20,106 nucleotides of DNA from a virus: IMG/VR virus record IMGVR_UViG_3300009164_000457, positions 1 through 20,106 of that record; one strand, written 5' to 3'. Positions 13,914-18,623 of the stretch are shown in pieces (position 1 is the stretch's first letter; every line of letters begins with the position of its first letter). The notes under the pieces were generated by a model that worked only from the letters and a program-made list of their open reading frames with translations, searched no databases and was not told the DNA's origin. The position numbers and the translations under genes are program-made.

Positions 13914-14123
13914 ATGACAGAAGAAAACACAACTCCAGTAAACACTCAAGAAGAATTGATTAAACAATTCCAAGTTTACATTGAAGAAAACGAAAAATTT
14001 ACAACTAAAAAAGTTAAGGCAGCTGCAGGTCGTGCTCGCAAGGCACTACAAGAAGTTGCTAAATTAGTCAAGCAAAGACGTAAAGAGATTACAGAAGAAA
14101 AGGCAGCATTGTCAGTTAAATGA
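13914..14123 (+). CDS. Small basic helical protein, Hc1-like
   Basis: The product has 69 residues: an acidic N-terminus (MTEENTTPVNTQEELIKQF), then a lysine/arginine-rich helix (TKKVKAAAGRARKALQEVAK, then LVKQRRKEITEEK). The alternation of A, K and R resembles histone H1-like Hc1 family proteins of chlamydiae and phages, suggesting DNA or RNA binding. This is a resemblance in composition and pattern, not a proven homology. TAGAGG in the end of gp46 (13899-13904) is a good Shine-Dalgarno sequence. The TGA overlaps the next ATG (ATGA), so it is coupled to the GIY-YIG gene. Confidence 0.7.
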   Translation: MTEENTTPVNTQEELIKQFQVYIEENEKFTTKKVKAAAGRARKALQEVAKLVKQRRKEITEEKAALSVK

Positions 14124-14548
14124 CATGGTTGTTCGAAGGAACTTCGGTAGACTCACTTCCTGAGGATTGTATTGGTTTTGTTTATCTCATTACCAATACT
14201 ATCACAGGCCGCAAATACATAGGCAAAAAATTAGCAAAATTCTCTAAGACAACTTATAAAACAGTAAAACTAAAAAACGGCACCAAAAAGAAGAAAAAAA
14301 TTAGAAGCAAAATCAACAGCGACTGGATGGACTATTATGGTTCCTCCGATGAACTTAACAAAGATATACTCACTCTTGGCAAAGAAAATTTCACCCGCGA
14401 AATACTACACTACTGCAAATCTAAGGCCCATACTTCATACCTCGAAGCTAAGGAACAATTCGACAGAAAAGTTCTTGAATCAACTGATTACTACAATGGC
14501 CAAATATCCGTTAGAGTACACGGATCCCATATCATAAACAAAATTTAA
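14120..14548 (+). CDS. GIY-YIG nuclease-domain protein (SegE-like)
   Basis: The product has 142 residues. FVYLITN (20-26) and RKYIGKK (31-37) form the GIY-YIG core strands. A lysine-rich insert (about 48-64) follows, then SDWMDYYGSSDEL and the helix SYLEAKEQF with a conserved-looking glutamate. This is the layout of the SegE-like branch, small free-standing proteins common in T4-like phages. They are usually called putative homing endonucleases, although many are fixed genes without evidence of mobility. The basic insert may bind DNA. It is translationally coupled to the Hc1-like gene and is the last gene before the structured intergenic region. Confidence 0.8.
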   Translation: MTWLFEGTSVDSLPEDCIGFVYLITNTITGRKYIGKKLAKFSKTTYKTVKLKNGTKKKKKIRSKINSDWMDYYGSSDELNKDILTLGKENFTREILHYCKSKAHTSYLEAKEQFDRKVLESTDYYNGQISVRVHGSHIINKI

Positions 14549-14550
14549 AT

Positions 14551-14770
14551 CGGCAACAGCCACAAAGACACTACTGATAATGCTCGTGCCGGCAAGTTAA
14601 ATAGGCGCCTGAATCCGTTCTGATGTGTGACGGTAGGAAATTCTGAGCAGTAGCAGAGACATGATTGCCACTATCCCAATGATGTTGGGACGAAGCGTTA
14701 GACTTGAAAAACGCTGGCATGTGTATGTATAGTCAAAATGAGTGGGCACTGCTGAGTCATTGCACCCCAC
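14551..14770 (+). ncRNA. Candidate structured noncoding RNA
   Basis: No convincing reading frame occurs between 14549 and 14824. By hand count 106 of 220 bases are G or C (48%), clearly above the AT-rich neighbouring genes. Helices visible on the plus strand: 14551-14555 with 14587-14591, continued by 14558-14560 with 14582-14584; 14615-14618 with 14630-14633; 14642-14645 with 14654-14657; a three-way junction closed by GCCA 14667-14670 and TGGC 14715-14718 holding hairpins 14674-14679/14685-14690 and 14695-14699/14710-14714; and GTGGG 14742-14746 with CCCAC 14766-14770. No tRNA T-loop, tmRNA ends or group I intron core was found. The strand is uncertain because helices exist in both transcripts. 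Function unknown. Confidence 0.5.
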
Positions 14771-14771
14771 G

Positions 14772-14807
14772 AAAATTAAGCTGTTTATCTATTGGCTACT
14801 TAATTTT
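14772..14807. terminator. Bidirectional terminator between convergent units
   Basis: AAAATTAAG (14772-14780) pairs perfectly with CTTAATTTT (14799-14807) across an 18-base loop. In either direction the RNA stem ends in a run of U that is part of the stem, typical of compact bidirectional terminators. It lies at the meeting point of the rightward gp55-gp46-GIY-YIG unit and the leftward gp26-like unit. Confidence 0.6.
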
Positions 14808-14824
14808 GCGTTATATTCGAAGAG

Positions 14825-15055
14825 CTACATAAAAAGGTACAGCGTAACCGCCTTTACTAGAAATAGTTGTAGTGATAGATTACGATAATGGGCCTCTGGC
14901 ATGTTATTTTTACTTTTGCCCCTAACAGGGCGAAGTACGACTTCAAAACCTTGGCATAATATATCTTGTACAGTATCGTTGAATATGTTAAAAAAGAATT
15001 CTAAGATTTGTGTTTTACTGTAAGTAAAAGGTAAATCTTGTTGTTCTATGAACAA
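14825..15055 (-). CDS. Small unknown frame without ATG start
   Basis: The frame codes for 76 residues if a TTG at 15055 is used. It has no ATG near its beginning and no good Shine-Dalgarno sequence. It is hydrophobic and aromatic at first (SKTQILEFFFNIFND), then basic (VVLRPVRGKSKNNMPEAHYR) with a hydrophobic end (LQLFLVKAVTLYLF). The patterned sequence and its position between the previous gene and a terminator favour a real product. The previous frame ends TTT TAA G; a +1 slip on the four T residues would fuse that protein to this one. Alternatively TTG initiation is coupled to the overlapping stop region. I do not recognise the family. Confidence 0.5.
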   Translation of the reverse strand: MFIEQQDLPFTYSKTQILEFFFNIFNDTVQDILCQGFEVVLRPVRGKSKNNMPEAHYRNLSLQLFLVKAVTLYLFM

Positions 15056-15056
15056 C

Positions 15057-15290
15057 TTAAAATCTTTCTTGAGTTAATGTTTGTGTTGGCTTAATGCCTT
15101 TATCTATACTAATTTTCTCTTTGAGCACTTTAAGGAATATTCGCTTTTCGTCATGGGTTAAATTCCATATTTGTTCATAACTCTGCCCTGAGTATATGGC
15201 CAACGTTGCGATATCTTCTATTAGGGCTTTTGACTCTTTGTCTAAGTTATCCAATAACTTAAGAACTTCAGGGCCTGACTTTGCTGTCAA
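15057..15290 (-). CDS. Small tail/hub assembly protein, probably read by -1 frameshift from the gp26-like gene
   Basis: The frame gives 77 residues from a TTG at 15290; there is no ATG, and AAGG lies only 3 bases before the TTG, too close for normal initiation. The protein is helical (PEVLKLLDNLDKESKALIED, then YSGQSYEQIWNLTHDEKRIF), resembling small tail-assembly chaperones. By order it sits where T4 has gene 51 (hub assembly catalyst), but similarity to gp51 cannot be shown by eye. The reading frame is -1 relative to the gp26-like gene, and a U UUU UUC heptamer lies at the right place to join them (see separate entry). It may therefore exist as the C-terminal domain of a longer fusion protein. 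Confidence 0.65.
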   Translation of the reverse strand: MTAKSGPEVLKLLDNLDKESKALIEDIATLAIYSGQSYEQIWNLTHDEKRIFLKVLKEKISIDKGIKPTQTLTQERF

Positions 15291-15308
15291 AAGCCTTAGA
15301 CGAAAAAA
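15272..15308 (-). other. Candidate programmed -1 ribosomal frameshift signal
   Basis: On the minus strand the gp26-like codons ACT TTT TTC GTC TAA contain the heptamer T TTT TTC (15308-15302) in zero frame, the X XXY YYZ form. A -1 slip continues as CGT CTA AGG CTT TTG ACA, the frame of the next gene, without a stop. Six bases after the heptamer begins a possible hairpin: GGC 15295-15293 with GCC 15274-15272, and TGAC 15289-15286 with GTCA 15279-15276 around a 6-base loop. Heptamer, frame register, short spacer and a missing ATG in the next gene all agree. Confidence 0.6.
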
Positions 15309-16132
15309 GTTGTTGGGTTCAAATCTATGCTGGATTCGTAGCCATGACTACAATTTTGGCATGTAACATTAAATGTCTTTTTCATACCTTTTTGTGCTAA
15401 TGACATAATACCATTTTCAATCTTCTTGAATTCTGGTTGACTTATTTGTTCCACCCATTCTTTGATATTGGTACTATCAGTGACAGTAACACCATCTGGT
15501 AATAACACGGTGTCAATACATGCTCCGATAATTAACAAATTCTGATTAGTCAGTGTGTTGTAACTCTTTTGCAAAAGATTAACTTTTTCTTTTTCATCCA
15601 TGTTACCTTGCTCTGCTTGTTGGATGTTTCTAACCTGTTCGTATTGTACCCAGTTTAAGTTTAGTAACTGTTTTACGTTAACAGGCTTGATAAACACTTT
15701 AATACCATCATCTAATGTAATGGGATCAAATTTATCTATAATAGCAATGCTGGCAATAAAATGATTTAAGTTTAGTACAGATTCGTTTCTTGTACTGCAT
15801 TCCGGACATTGTGTTTCGATGTCCAAATCTTCACCATAGGTACAACGTCTGATGGCCAATAGCACTGCATCTAAATCAATAGCTGGCATTGTATCCACAC
15901 TGGTAATACTGGGTACACAGCTATTGAGTAATTGTGTGATAGCCGTGCCATTTAGTAGCGCATCGGCATTTTTCATTAGCAGTTCATCTTTAGCTGTCAT
16001 TGGATATACAGCGATTTCTCCCATGTCATTAAAGTCACTAGGCTTGTTGTCATAGTACTGACCTTGACTGGGTAGCTTGATCCATATTCCAGGCTTTCTG
16101 AAATACTGCTTTAGTGGATTGTTTTCTGACAT
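15296..16132 (-). CDS. 26: gp26-like baseplate hub/assembly protein
   Basis: The product has 278 residues and matches the T4 gp26 baseplate family in pattern: GIWIKLPSQGQYYDN near the start, VYPMTAKDELLMKNADALLN (43-62), then LLAIRRCTYGEDLDI. T4 gp26 has 208 residues; this one carries extra length. Two cysteine pairs, C109/C112 (TQCPECS) and C258/C261 (VTCQNCS), could form a zinc ribbon. The protein is thought to act in assembly of the central baseplate hub. The ATG at 16132 has GGAG 7 bases upstream (16143-16140), and a perfect late promoter lies before it. The gene is divergent from the tape measure gene. Its last codons contain the frameshift heptamer. Confidence 0.85.
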   Translation of the reverse strand: MSENNPLKQYFRKPGIWIKLPSQGQYYDNKPSDFNDMGEIAVYPMTAKDELLMKNADALLNGTAITQLLNSCVPSITSVDTMPAIDLDAVLLAIRRCTYGEDLDIETQCPECSTRNESVLNLNHFIASIAIIDKFDPITLDDGIKVFIKPVNVKQLLNLNWVQYEQVRNIQQAEQGNMDEKEKVNLLQKSYNTLTNQNLLIIGACIDTVLLPDGVTVTDSTNIKEWVEQISQPEFKKIENGIMSLAQKGMKKTFNVTCQNCSHGYESSIDLNPTTFFV

Positions 16133-16190: not shown

Positions 16191-18623
16191 ATGGCTGATA
16201 GAATTTCCGGAACAGTTGAACCTAGTATACAAGGCGGGGAAGGTTATTTCACCTTTTCGCTAGATGGCTTATCTACGGCCAAGCAAATGGAAAAGCTAAT
16301 TGGCTTGACCGAAGACTTAGTCAAGCGAATAGTTGGTAAAGATGCCGAAAGTTTAAAAGAACAAAAAGCACAAACAGCCGCGATAAATGCCAGTACTGAT
16401 GCCATTGAAAGCGAAACAGATGCTAGAAAAGATTCAGAAAAAGAATGGATTAACTCTACTAGATTTATTAAAAACATATTCCATGGCCAATTTGGTTTAG
16501 CTTTAGATGAATCATCTAAAGGGCTAACAGCGTTTGCAGGTATTGTTGGCTTTGCTTATGGTAAACTGGAAAATTATGGCAAAGATCTAGGCGAAGGTTT
16601 GAAACGTGGCGTTGCGGGTAGCACATTTGATTTGGCAATTGCATCTAAATCAGCAGGTGTTAGTGTTACAACTTTTACAAAAGCATTGGGAGAGAGTGGC
16701 GGAGCATTTGCCAGTCTGGGCTCAGGAGCAACCGACGGTGCAAAACAATTTGGTGGATTAGTAAAAAGTGTTAGACTAGCCACAGCAGACGTTGGTAATC
16801 TAGGCATGGGTCTAGATGAAATGGCAATATTCACTGCTCAACAAACAAAGACAGCAGTACAGCAGGGATTTAAAGGCAAATCGGCACAGGATGCTGTAAT
16901 CAGAAACAGTCGTGAATTAGGTAAAGAATTAGATGTGTTAGCATCCAGAACAGGTAAGAGTGTCATGGAAATGGCGCAGGCCGCAATGAAACTGTCGCAG
17001 GATCCTATTGTTGCTAACTTTGTTAGAAGTATGAAATCAGGTAATAGAGAAGTATCTGGTGCGATTCAAAGCTTTGGCGCAAGTATGAATGCGCTATTTG
17101 GTGAGATGGGTGATAAGATAGGTCAAGACGCTCTTCAATCCGCTATCAGCGGATTACCAATGGTAATAACTGACACTGGTAAGAATATGTTGCTTGCTGG
17201 CACTGGCATATACGAAGAAATAGAACGACAAGCACAATTAGCCAAAGCAGGCAATAAGATAACAGAACAAGATCAAGAGAAACTGCGTGATATGGTCATG
17301 CGAACTGTTAAATCACGTGAACAAGAATTGGCAGCCTATGCTCAAATACCGGGTGTTGTTGGAGATAGTGCTAGACAATTATTAAAAATGGCCGACGCCG
17401 CTTCAACGTATAACAGCGAAGAAAACATAAGAGATCGCAAACGTGCTGATTCAGCAAAACAATTTAACGCTGAATTAAGATCACTACAAGCTAGTTTGCA
17501 AGAAATGGCAATACCGTTGTTAAAAGCAATTAACATGATTGACTGGGCATCAGTATTCCAAGTTATTTCTTTTATACCTAGAAAAATAGCAGAAGTAATG
17601 GATTTCTTTGGAGCTATAGTTAAATCACTGCCTGAGCCATTAGTCACTGTATTTTCTGCTGTGGGATCAGTACTCAGTACATTTGGCAGTGTGATATTAG
17701 GCGTAGGTGTACTGCTAGGTATGGTTGCAGTAGGTGTTAAATTATTCAATGGAGGAATAGGAATATTAGGCAAAGGATTAAGTGTATTAGGAGTTACAAC
17801 GTTGCCTACATATATAACTAAGTATGCCATAGTTAACAAAGCATTAGATTCATTTACTGCGGCATTGCTCAAGGCAGCCTCTACAGCTAAAAATGACGGT
17901 TTTGGGGGATTTGATCGACCGCAACGCAATCGTGGAAGAAGAACAGGTCAAGGACCAAACCCAGCAGACATTCCAGCATCTCAACGTAAAGCTGATGGTA
18001 AAGATTTCCCAAGTAAATTACCTGAAAATGCCAAAGGTGGAAATACCAGTGGCAAAGGACCAAACCCAGCTGACATTCCAGCATATCAACGCAAAACTAC
18101 TGGCAAAGATTTTCCAAGTAAATTACCTGAAAATGCCAAAGGCGGAAGTATTGCTAACGGGCTATATGGTATGGCTAAAATTGGTGGTAAATTATCAATA
18201 GCTGGAATGGCAACTGGTCTAGCCGCAGATGTTACAGCTGATATGTTAGGTCGAGAAACGTTTTGGGGCAAAGTTGCAGATACAGTTAGTACAGCCGCAG
18301 CCTTAGGGGGCACTGGAGCAATGACAGGTAATCCATGGCTTGCAGCCGGCGGCGCCGCTCTGGGATTAGGCACCGGCTTATATAAAAACTTCTATAGTGA
18401 TAGTGCTAGCAGTATGTCCGGAGAAATCACATCACAAGCAGCCAGTGGTGACAATCCAGTGTTAGCCGCACAGTTAGCCAGTATTGAACAACAAAAGAAA
18501 CAAAATGATCTAATGCTTGAATCTATCAACGAACAAGCCATTGCCAACAGAATAGCGACTATGGGATTGAGCAAAGACGACGATTTGGCACGTAGAATAA
18601 GTGCCATAAGCTTTAACGCATAA
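16191..18623 (+). CDS. Tape measure protein (gp29 role)
   Basis: The product has 810 residues. It is long, rich in A, G, K, Q and S, and mainly helical, with a hydrophobic glycine-rich stretch at about 480-535 (FSAVGSVLSTFGSVILGVGV, then LLGMVAVGVKLF) and a second near 715-730 (WLAAGGAALGLGTGL). This is the usual profile of phage tape measure proteins, which set tail tube length, sit inside the tube and may help DNA cross the inner membrane. T4 gp29 has 590 residues. Residues 586-654 hold two copies of a 35-residue unit. The ATG at 16191 lacks a clear Shine-Dalgarno sequence. The assignment rests on composition, size and position beside the gp26-like and portal genes, not on direct similarity to gp29. 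Confidence 0.75.
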   Translation: MADRISGTVEPSIQGGEGYFTFSLDGLSTAKQMEKLIGLTEDLVKRIVGKDAESLKEQKAQTAAINASTDAIESETDARKDSEKEWINSTRFIKNIFHGQFGLALDESSKGLTAFAGIVGFAYGKLENYGKDLGEGLKRGVAGSTFDLAIASKSAGVSVTTFTKALGESGGAFASLGSGATDGAKQFGGLVKSVRLATADVGNLGMGLDEMAIFTAQQTKTAVQQGFKGKSAQDAVIRNSRELGKELDVLASRTGKSVMEMAQAAMKLSQDPIVANFVRSMKSGNREVSGAIQSFGASMNALFGEMGDKIGQDALQSAISGLPMVITDTGKNMLLAGTGIYEEIERQAQLAKAGNKITEQDQEKLRDMVMRTVKSREQELAAYAQIPGVVGDSARQLLKMADAASTYNSEENIRDRKRADSAKQFNAELRSLQASLQEMAIPLLKAINMIDWASVFQVISFIPRKIAEVMDFFGAIVKSLPEPLVTVFSAVGSVLSTFGSVILGVGVLLGMVAVGVKLFNGGIGILGKGLSVLGVTTLPTYITKYAIVNKALDSFTAALLKAASTAKNDGFGGFDRPQRNRGRRTGQGPNPADIPASQRKADGKDFPSKLPENAKGGNTSGKGPNPADIPAYQRKTTGKDFPSKLPENAKGGSIANGLYGMAKIGGKLSIAGMATGLAADVTADMLGRETFWGKVADTVSTAAALGGTGAMTGNPWLAAGGAALGLGTGLYKNFYSDSASSMSGEITSQAASGDNPVLAAQLASIEQQKKQNDLMLESINEQAIANRIATMGLSKDDDLARRISAISFNA
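17946..18155 (+). repeat. Two tandem 105-bp units in the tape measure gene
   Basis: Units 17946-18050 and 18051-18155 share long identical blocks (GGACCAAACCCAGC begins at 17952 and again at 18057) and encode G(Q/K)GPNPADIPA, then KDFPSKLPENAKGG, twice. The period is 105 bases, 35 codons, so the frame is kept. Differences are mainly at third positions, so the duplication is not brand new. Confidence 0.9.

Follow-up and report, generated by a model that had tools for sequence, protein, structure and literature searches.

A conserved slippery heptamer at the end of gp26-like genes points to -1 frameshifted tail-assembly chaperones in jumbo phages and cyanophages

Introduction

In the DNA analysed here, i.e., 20,106 nucleotides of the virus record IMGVR_UViG_3300009164_000457 of IMG/VR (hereafter the window), a gp26-like gene runs into a small reading frame lacking an ATG, and the question raised by this locus is whether the two are read as one, with some ribosomes slipping back by a base at the end of the first to yield a second and longer protein. 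In a 2016 review, frameshifting of the G-T type was viewed as widely conserved, T4 being the exception (PMC5009743), and another paper counts gp26 and gp51 of T4 among the hub assembly chaperones (PMC3004832). A preliminary description of the window, made from its letters, had proposed that a -1 frameshift may join the gp26-like protein to the next frame, none being described, to its author's knowledge, for gp26 of T4-like phages. Such a frameshift was, however, published in kind in 2022: as far as the papers citing it convey, the study of Vladimirov, Gautam and Davidson (Virology 2022;566:9-15) deals with some T4-like phages in which a short gene is accompanied by a long, fused one (PMC10885494) and with poly-T slippery sequences in T4-like TAC-N genes (PMC12846349). 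In the TAC-N/TAC-NC pairs of that study, as cited, and in the window alike, the short form is of the gp26 type and a poly-T slippery site precedes its stop; set against gpG/gpGT of lambda (PMC5009743), the heptamer of the window is T_TTT_TTC. The idea of a frameshift is right and, to the extent reported by the citing papers, already published in kind for T4-like phages. What the present analysis adds is the extension to jumbo phages, a quantification and recurring stimulator-like hairpins, the novelty being limited to new members and quantification; a literature search, in which the 2022 study was known via citing papers, found no paper on jumbo phages with a gp26 frameshift.

The gp26-like gene, its slippery site and the -1 frame

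The gp26-like gene (15296-16132, minus strand) encodes a protein of 278 aa, which would be the short form (TAC-N). By profile search, this protein matches PF12322 T4_baseplate (E=3.2e-22, 79.8 bits for a cut-off of 24.5) as well as phrog_150, i.e., baseplate hub (E=3.1e-28), and its AlphaFold model (pLDDT 88.6, pTM 0.83) matches predicted viral baseplate-hub proteins of the gp26 type. Experimental structures were less informative: a Foldseek search of the PDB with the gp26 model returned nothing significant, nothing meaningful came from sequence searches of the PDB using T4 gp51 or the gp26 profile, and the alignment of the HK97 chaperone (2ob9) to the gp26 model by VIA-align (Z 5.9, 100/107 residues, rmsd 5.0) falls within the range of unrelated entries.

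The gene ends with AAC CCA ACA ACT TTT TTC GTC TAA, where the stop TAA occupies 15296-15298 and the slippery heptamer T_TTT_TTC (TTTTTTC) occupies 15302-15308 (minus strand), its TTT and TTC being codons of gp26. The -1 frame is open from 15347 down to a stop at 15057-15059, namely 96 codons from stop to stop and 83 codons from the slip (15057-15308, minus strand). With no stop and no ATG over these 83 codons, a homologous frame in relatives and a model in which it forms helices (AlphaFold, pLDDT 78), this stretch is the candidate C-terminal extension of a long form (TAC-NC); the product of the -1 slip would begin FFRLRLLTAKSGPEVLKLL and the fusion of gp26 with the -1 frame is predicted to reach 358 aa. 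The earliest ATG, GTG or TTG of the -1 frame after the slip in the window is the TTG at 15290, reached after six codons, which makes a poor start because AAGG stands just 3 nt upstream. As such, the in-register heptamer, the stop-free passage into the next frame and the want of any start there besides a TTG with AAGG 3 bases away, all asserted in the preliminary description, were found in the window as described. Just downstream, a third frame on the minus strand (14825-15055) was considered as well and rejected, as it is not kept open in relatives.

Conservation of the slippery site among relatives

The sample comprised 115 gp26 loci, namely 35 of jumbo type, the window included, and 80 of cyanophage type fetched with the gp26 of S-PM2; as these loci include near-duplicates, they were also counted as 34 lineages at <70% gp26 identity and 15 at <50%. 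The closest relatives of the window (90-94% gp26 identity) lie on contigs of 172 and 233 kb, and the named ones are jumbo phages, e.g., Atu_ph07, XacN1, PA5oct, Phosso, BF, Munch, 121Q, CBB, RaK2 and GAP32, among others. Conservation of the heptamer and of the missing ATG in related phages had been put forward as a check of the frameshift. On the first count the heptamer is invariant, standing in register in 115/115 loci, as TTTTTTC in 113 and as TTTTTTT in XacN1 and RAS14 (loci L018 and L026); the outcome is also favourable on the second, the next frame being usually without an ATG near its beginning. In all 115 loci, the -1 frame opens at the heptamer and runs for about 60-95 codons into a small conserved downstream frame. 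Depending on the locus, the gp26 stop follows the heptamer at a distance of 3 to 33 nt, and the -1 frame is open across this interval in every locus.

The constraint at this site goes beyond the encoded residues. Across the 34 lineages, the amino acid preceding Phe-Phe can be N, S, T, D, H, A, R or Y, yet it is invariably encoded by a codon with T in third position; the first Phe codon of the site is TTT throughout, although TTC makes up 37% of the Phe codons in these genes. Under a null based on the genes' own codon usage, the T_TTT context has a probability of about 1e-15 over the 34 lineages and about 1e-7 over the 15, the lineages being treated as independent, which they are not fully. At other Phe-Phe pairs within the same genes, the T_TTT_TTY context occurs in 2 of 18 cases. 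Past the Phe-Phe pair, the first residue of the -1 frame is Arg in 105 of the 115 loci, and the residue at this place in the 0 frame is variable. The heptamer is real and far from a chance occurrence. Four further T4-like phages were also considered, of which IC12 and phiAS5 carry T_TTT_TTC, RL38J1 carries T_TTT_TTG and the Pseudomonas phage Cygsa01 has no heptamer, its gene pair showing a TAATG overlap instead.

Separate initiation and transcriptional slippage

The T-run could be incidental and the second frame an independent small gene, translationally coupled or reinitiated close to the gp26 stop at a codon other than ATG. Overlaps of the ATGA or TAATG kind, typical of coupled starts, are indeed found in three loci (L014, L016 and L017), an ATG stands five codons past the slip in many cyanophages, and Cygsa01 itself combines a TAATG with the lack of a heptamer. 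In Atu_ph07, Phosso, 121Q, S-PM2 and many cyanophages, an early ATG lies no more than a few codons from the slip, so that separate initiation may add to frameshifting in all of these; the annotations of Phosso, 121Q and S-PM2 treat the second frame as a gene of its own. This explanation nevertheless appears very unlikely as a general account, since the frame in the window is devoid of any ATG, with AAGG too close to its TTG, and incidental coding fails to account for a heptamer in 115/115 loci in which a T invariably precedes the Phe codons. Moreover, many lineages have their first start 14-36 codons past the slip, yet the -1 protein is conserved from the slip onward (FFR..LL). An independent start at a TTG or an ATG was thus rejected as the main route, starts being missing or late in most lineages. 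Entry from further upstream was also considered: an ATG, GTG or TTG precedes the slip in the -1 frame in 1 of the 115 loci and, in Munch and Hallingskeid (loci L020 and L027), a -1 stop stands right before the heptamer, so that no ribosome could come into the -1 frame from further upstream there.

Runs of six T can cause some slippage of polymerases, and the run at this site, of six T or seven in XacN1 and RAS14, is of a suitable kind for an RNA polymerase adding or dropping a U, in which case the frame would be changed in the transcript instead of on the ribosome. Against this transcriptional slippage, which we regard as extremely improbable, stand the form of the site, which in 113 of the 115 loci is a heptamer phased with the codons and terminated by a C instead of an extended homopolymer, and the enrichment of structure directly past the heptamer, as expected for ribosomal frameshifting.

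Downstream RNA structure

A hairpin 6 bases downstream of the heptamer had been noticed from the letters of the window, and a 10-bp stem does start exactly 6 nt after it, GGCUUUUGAC at 15286-15295 pairing with GUCAAAAGCC at 15225-15234. This outer stem closes a putative stimulatory stem-loop (15225-15295, minus strand), proposed from its fold z and from pairing in relatives. The fold z is -2.0 in the window and ranges from -3.8 to -1.7 in four relatives (L001, L004, L006 and L009). In the window, the signal requires an 80-nt stretch including the outer stem, the first 50 nt past the heptamer alone folding no better than chance (z 0.04). Over the 34 lineages, the 60 nt starting 4 nt past the heptamer give, against dinucleotide shuffles, a mean z of -1.77, with 56% below -1.5, and the mean values for control segments of the same genes are -0.11 to -0.27 on the upstream side and -0.70 at a greater distance downstream. 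The sequences of the stems differ by clade, with shorter hairpins in clades other than those of the window and of S-PM2-like phages. In the clade of the window, 95% of the cells of the 10-bp long-range stem are paired, with one double change from A-U to U-A; in S-PM2-like phages, 94% are paired in an 11-bp hairpin, with one change from C-G to U-A. Because the stem sequences also encode protein, there is little structural covariation, and the downstream stem-loops are likely stimulators of the frameshift.

The two products and their relation to gp26 and gp51 of T4

Both gp26 and gp51 of T4 belong to the same PHROG family as the gp26-like protein of the window, i.e., phrog_150, of which the 282 positions are covered differently, from 14 to 235 by T4 gp26, from 13 to 280 by T4 gp51 and from 240 to 281 only by a 57-aa cyanophage 'gp51' (E=1.7e-6 against the end of the profile). 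From this coverage, T4 gp51 resembles a protein of the gp26 type that already carries, as a fusion, the small extra domain into which other phages would frameshift. The preliminary description had taken gp26 plus the next frame for the T4-type counterpart of the G/GT pair, which these spans of gp26, gp51 and cyanophage gp51 support. In 2022, Vladimirov, Gautam and Davidson reportedly gave the chaperone genes of T4-like phages their names and found frameshifting to be conserved in several T4-like groups, T4 using separate genes 26 and 51; on the basis of that study and of the phrog_150 coverage, the long form of T4-like phages (TAC-NC) would be the equivalent of T4 gp51.

The resemblance to the window differs from phage to phage. 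In cyanophage S-PM2, gp26 ends with TCT TTT TTC GCA TAA and the -1 frame runs into gp51, as in the window, although the locus is annotated as two genes and the C-terminal domain is shorter, being the 57-aa 'gp51'. In T4, the two forms are separate and divergently oriented genes, and gp26, whose downstream neighbour is gene 25, lacks a slippery site; a frameshift in T4 itself was rejected, as gp26 ends with GAG TTC TTT GAG and the -1 frame is not open. Aligned as fusions, the jumbo and cyanophage profiles match over 280 columns with a probability of 98.7, and the C-terminal domains alone of the jumbo phages and of the cyanophage second frame (ORF2) align weakly (probability 47). By hhalign, the ORF2 family of the window shows no significant similarity to T4 gp51 (probability 0.5), and cyanophage ORF2 aligns to T4 gp51 over 38 columns with a probability of 74. 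Direct C-terminal similarity being weak, the assignment of the C-terminal domain of the window rests more on position, mechanism and the fused profile.

Neighbouring genes and RNA

Adjoining the gp26-like gene and divergent from it, a gene of 810 aa (16191-18623, plus strand) is a candidate for the tape measure protein. It has weak family matches only in profile searches and no match in 50,697 phage records; it is conserved in related contigs, and the RaK2 gene found at its place is annotated as similar to tape measure protein. A tape measure identity is plausible for this neighbour.

On the other side of the pair, about 500 nt (14549-15056) separate it from a GIY-YIG gene and retain 78-94% DNA identity in relatives, with no reading frame kept open among them. 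An Rfam match to the Polynucleobacter-1 RNA (RF01718; 46.9 bits, cut-off 37) lies there at 14581-14724 (plus strand), and RF01718 matches of 46.9-74.9 bits occupy this position next to the gp26 pair in seven loci of related phages, which suggests a phage RNA. We know of no function for this RNA family. As the Rfam match covers just part of 14549-15056, an additional structured RNA may lie at 14725-15056. The gene adjoining this conserved RNA region (14120-14548, plus strand) encodes a SegE-like GIY-YIG homing endonuclease (PF19835, E=1.7e-33), of which the best PHROG match, phrog_447, is labelled NAD synthetase, probably a mislabel. Further along, a 69-aa protein (13914-14123, plus strand) matches the histone H1-like Hc1 family (PF07432, E=9.5e-11), a family of DNA-binding proteins that one would not expect next to the recombination and tail genes of a phage.

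Proposed mechanism and implications

It is very probable that a programmed -1 frameshift at the end of gp26 yields a short (TAC-N, gp26) and a long (TAC-NC) tail-assembly chaperone. Ribosomes translating the gp26-like gene would meet T_TTT_TTC, where a fraction would slip back by one base, tRNA-Phe re-pairing with TTT TTT, and the stem-loop 6 nt downstream probably aids the slip. Most ribosomes would end at the TAA, giving the 278-aa short form, and the slipped minority would give the 358-aa long form with its extra helical C-terminal domain. The two products would correspond to TAC-N and TAC-NC of the T4 type and handle the tape measure protein in tail assembly, like gpG and gpGT of lambda, the long form in T4 being provided by a separate gene, namely gene 51. 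Conservation of the signal and of the -1 frame can be read in the sequences themselves, and so can the domain composition of T4 gp51; we infer the slippage, its efficiency and the chaperone function, and such reasoning gives good support to a role of the gene pair as tail-assembly chaperones. Regarding its origin, we lean slightly towards a gp26 frameshift, with a T6C site and clade-specific hairpins, being ancestral to the T4 superfamily, RaK2-like jumbo phages included, and being lost on the branch of T4, where a duplication gave rise to genes 26 and 51.

For the pair annotated as 'baseplate hub' and 'hypothetical protein' in the jumbo phage and cyanophage records examined, the gene model is thus corrected and a likely function proposed, and the ratio of short to long chaperone becomes testable in several lab phages. 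The frameshift signal extends to jumbo phages of which the gp26 is only 25-30% identical, and the finding supports the published account of why T4 seemed to be without the otherwise conserved G/GT frameshift.
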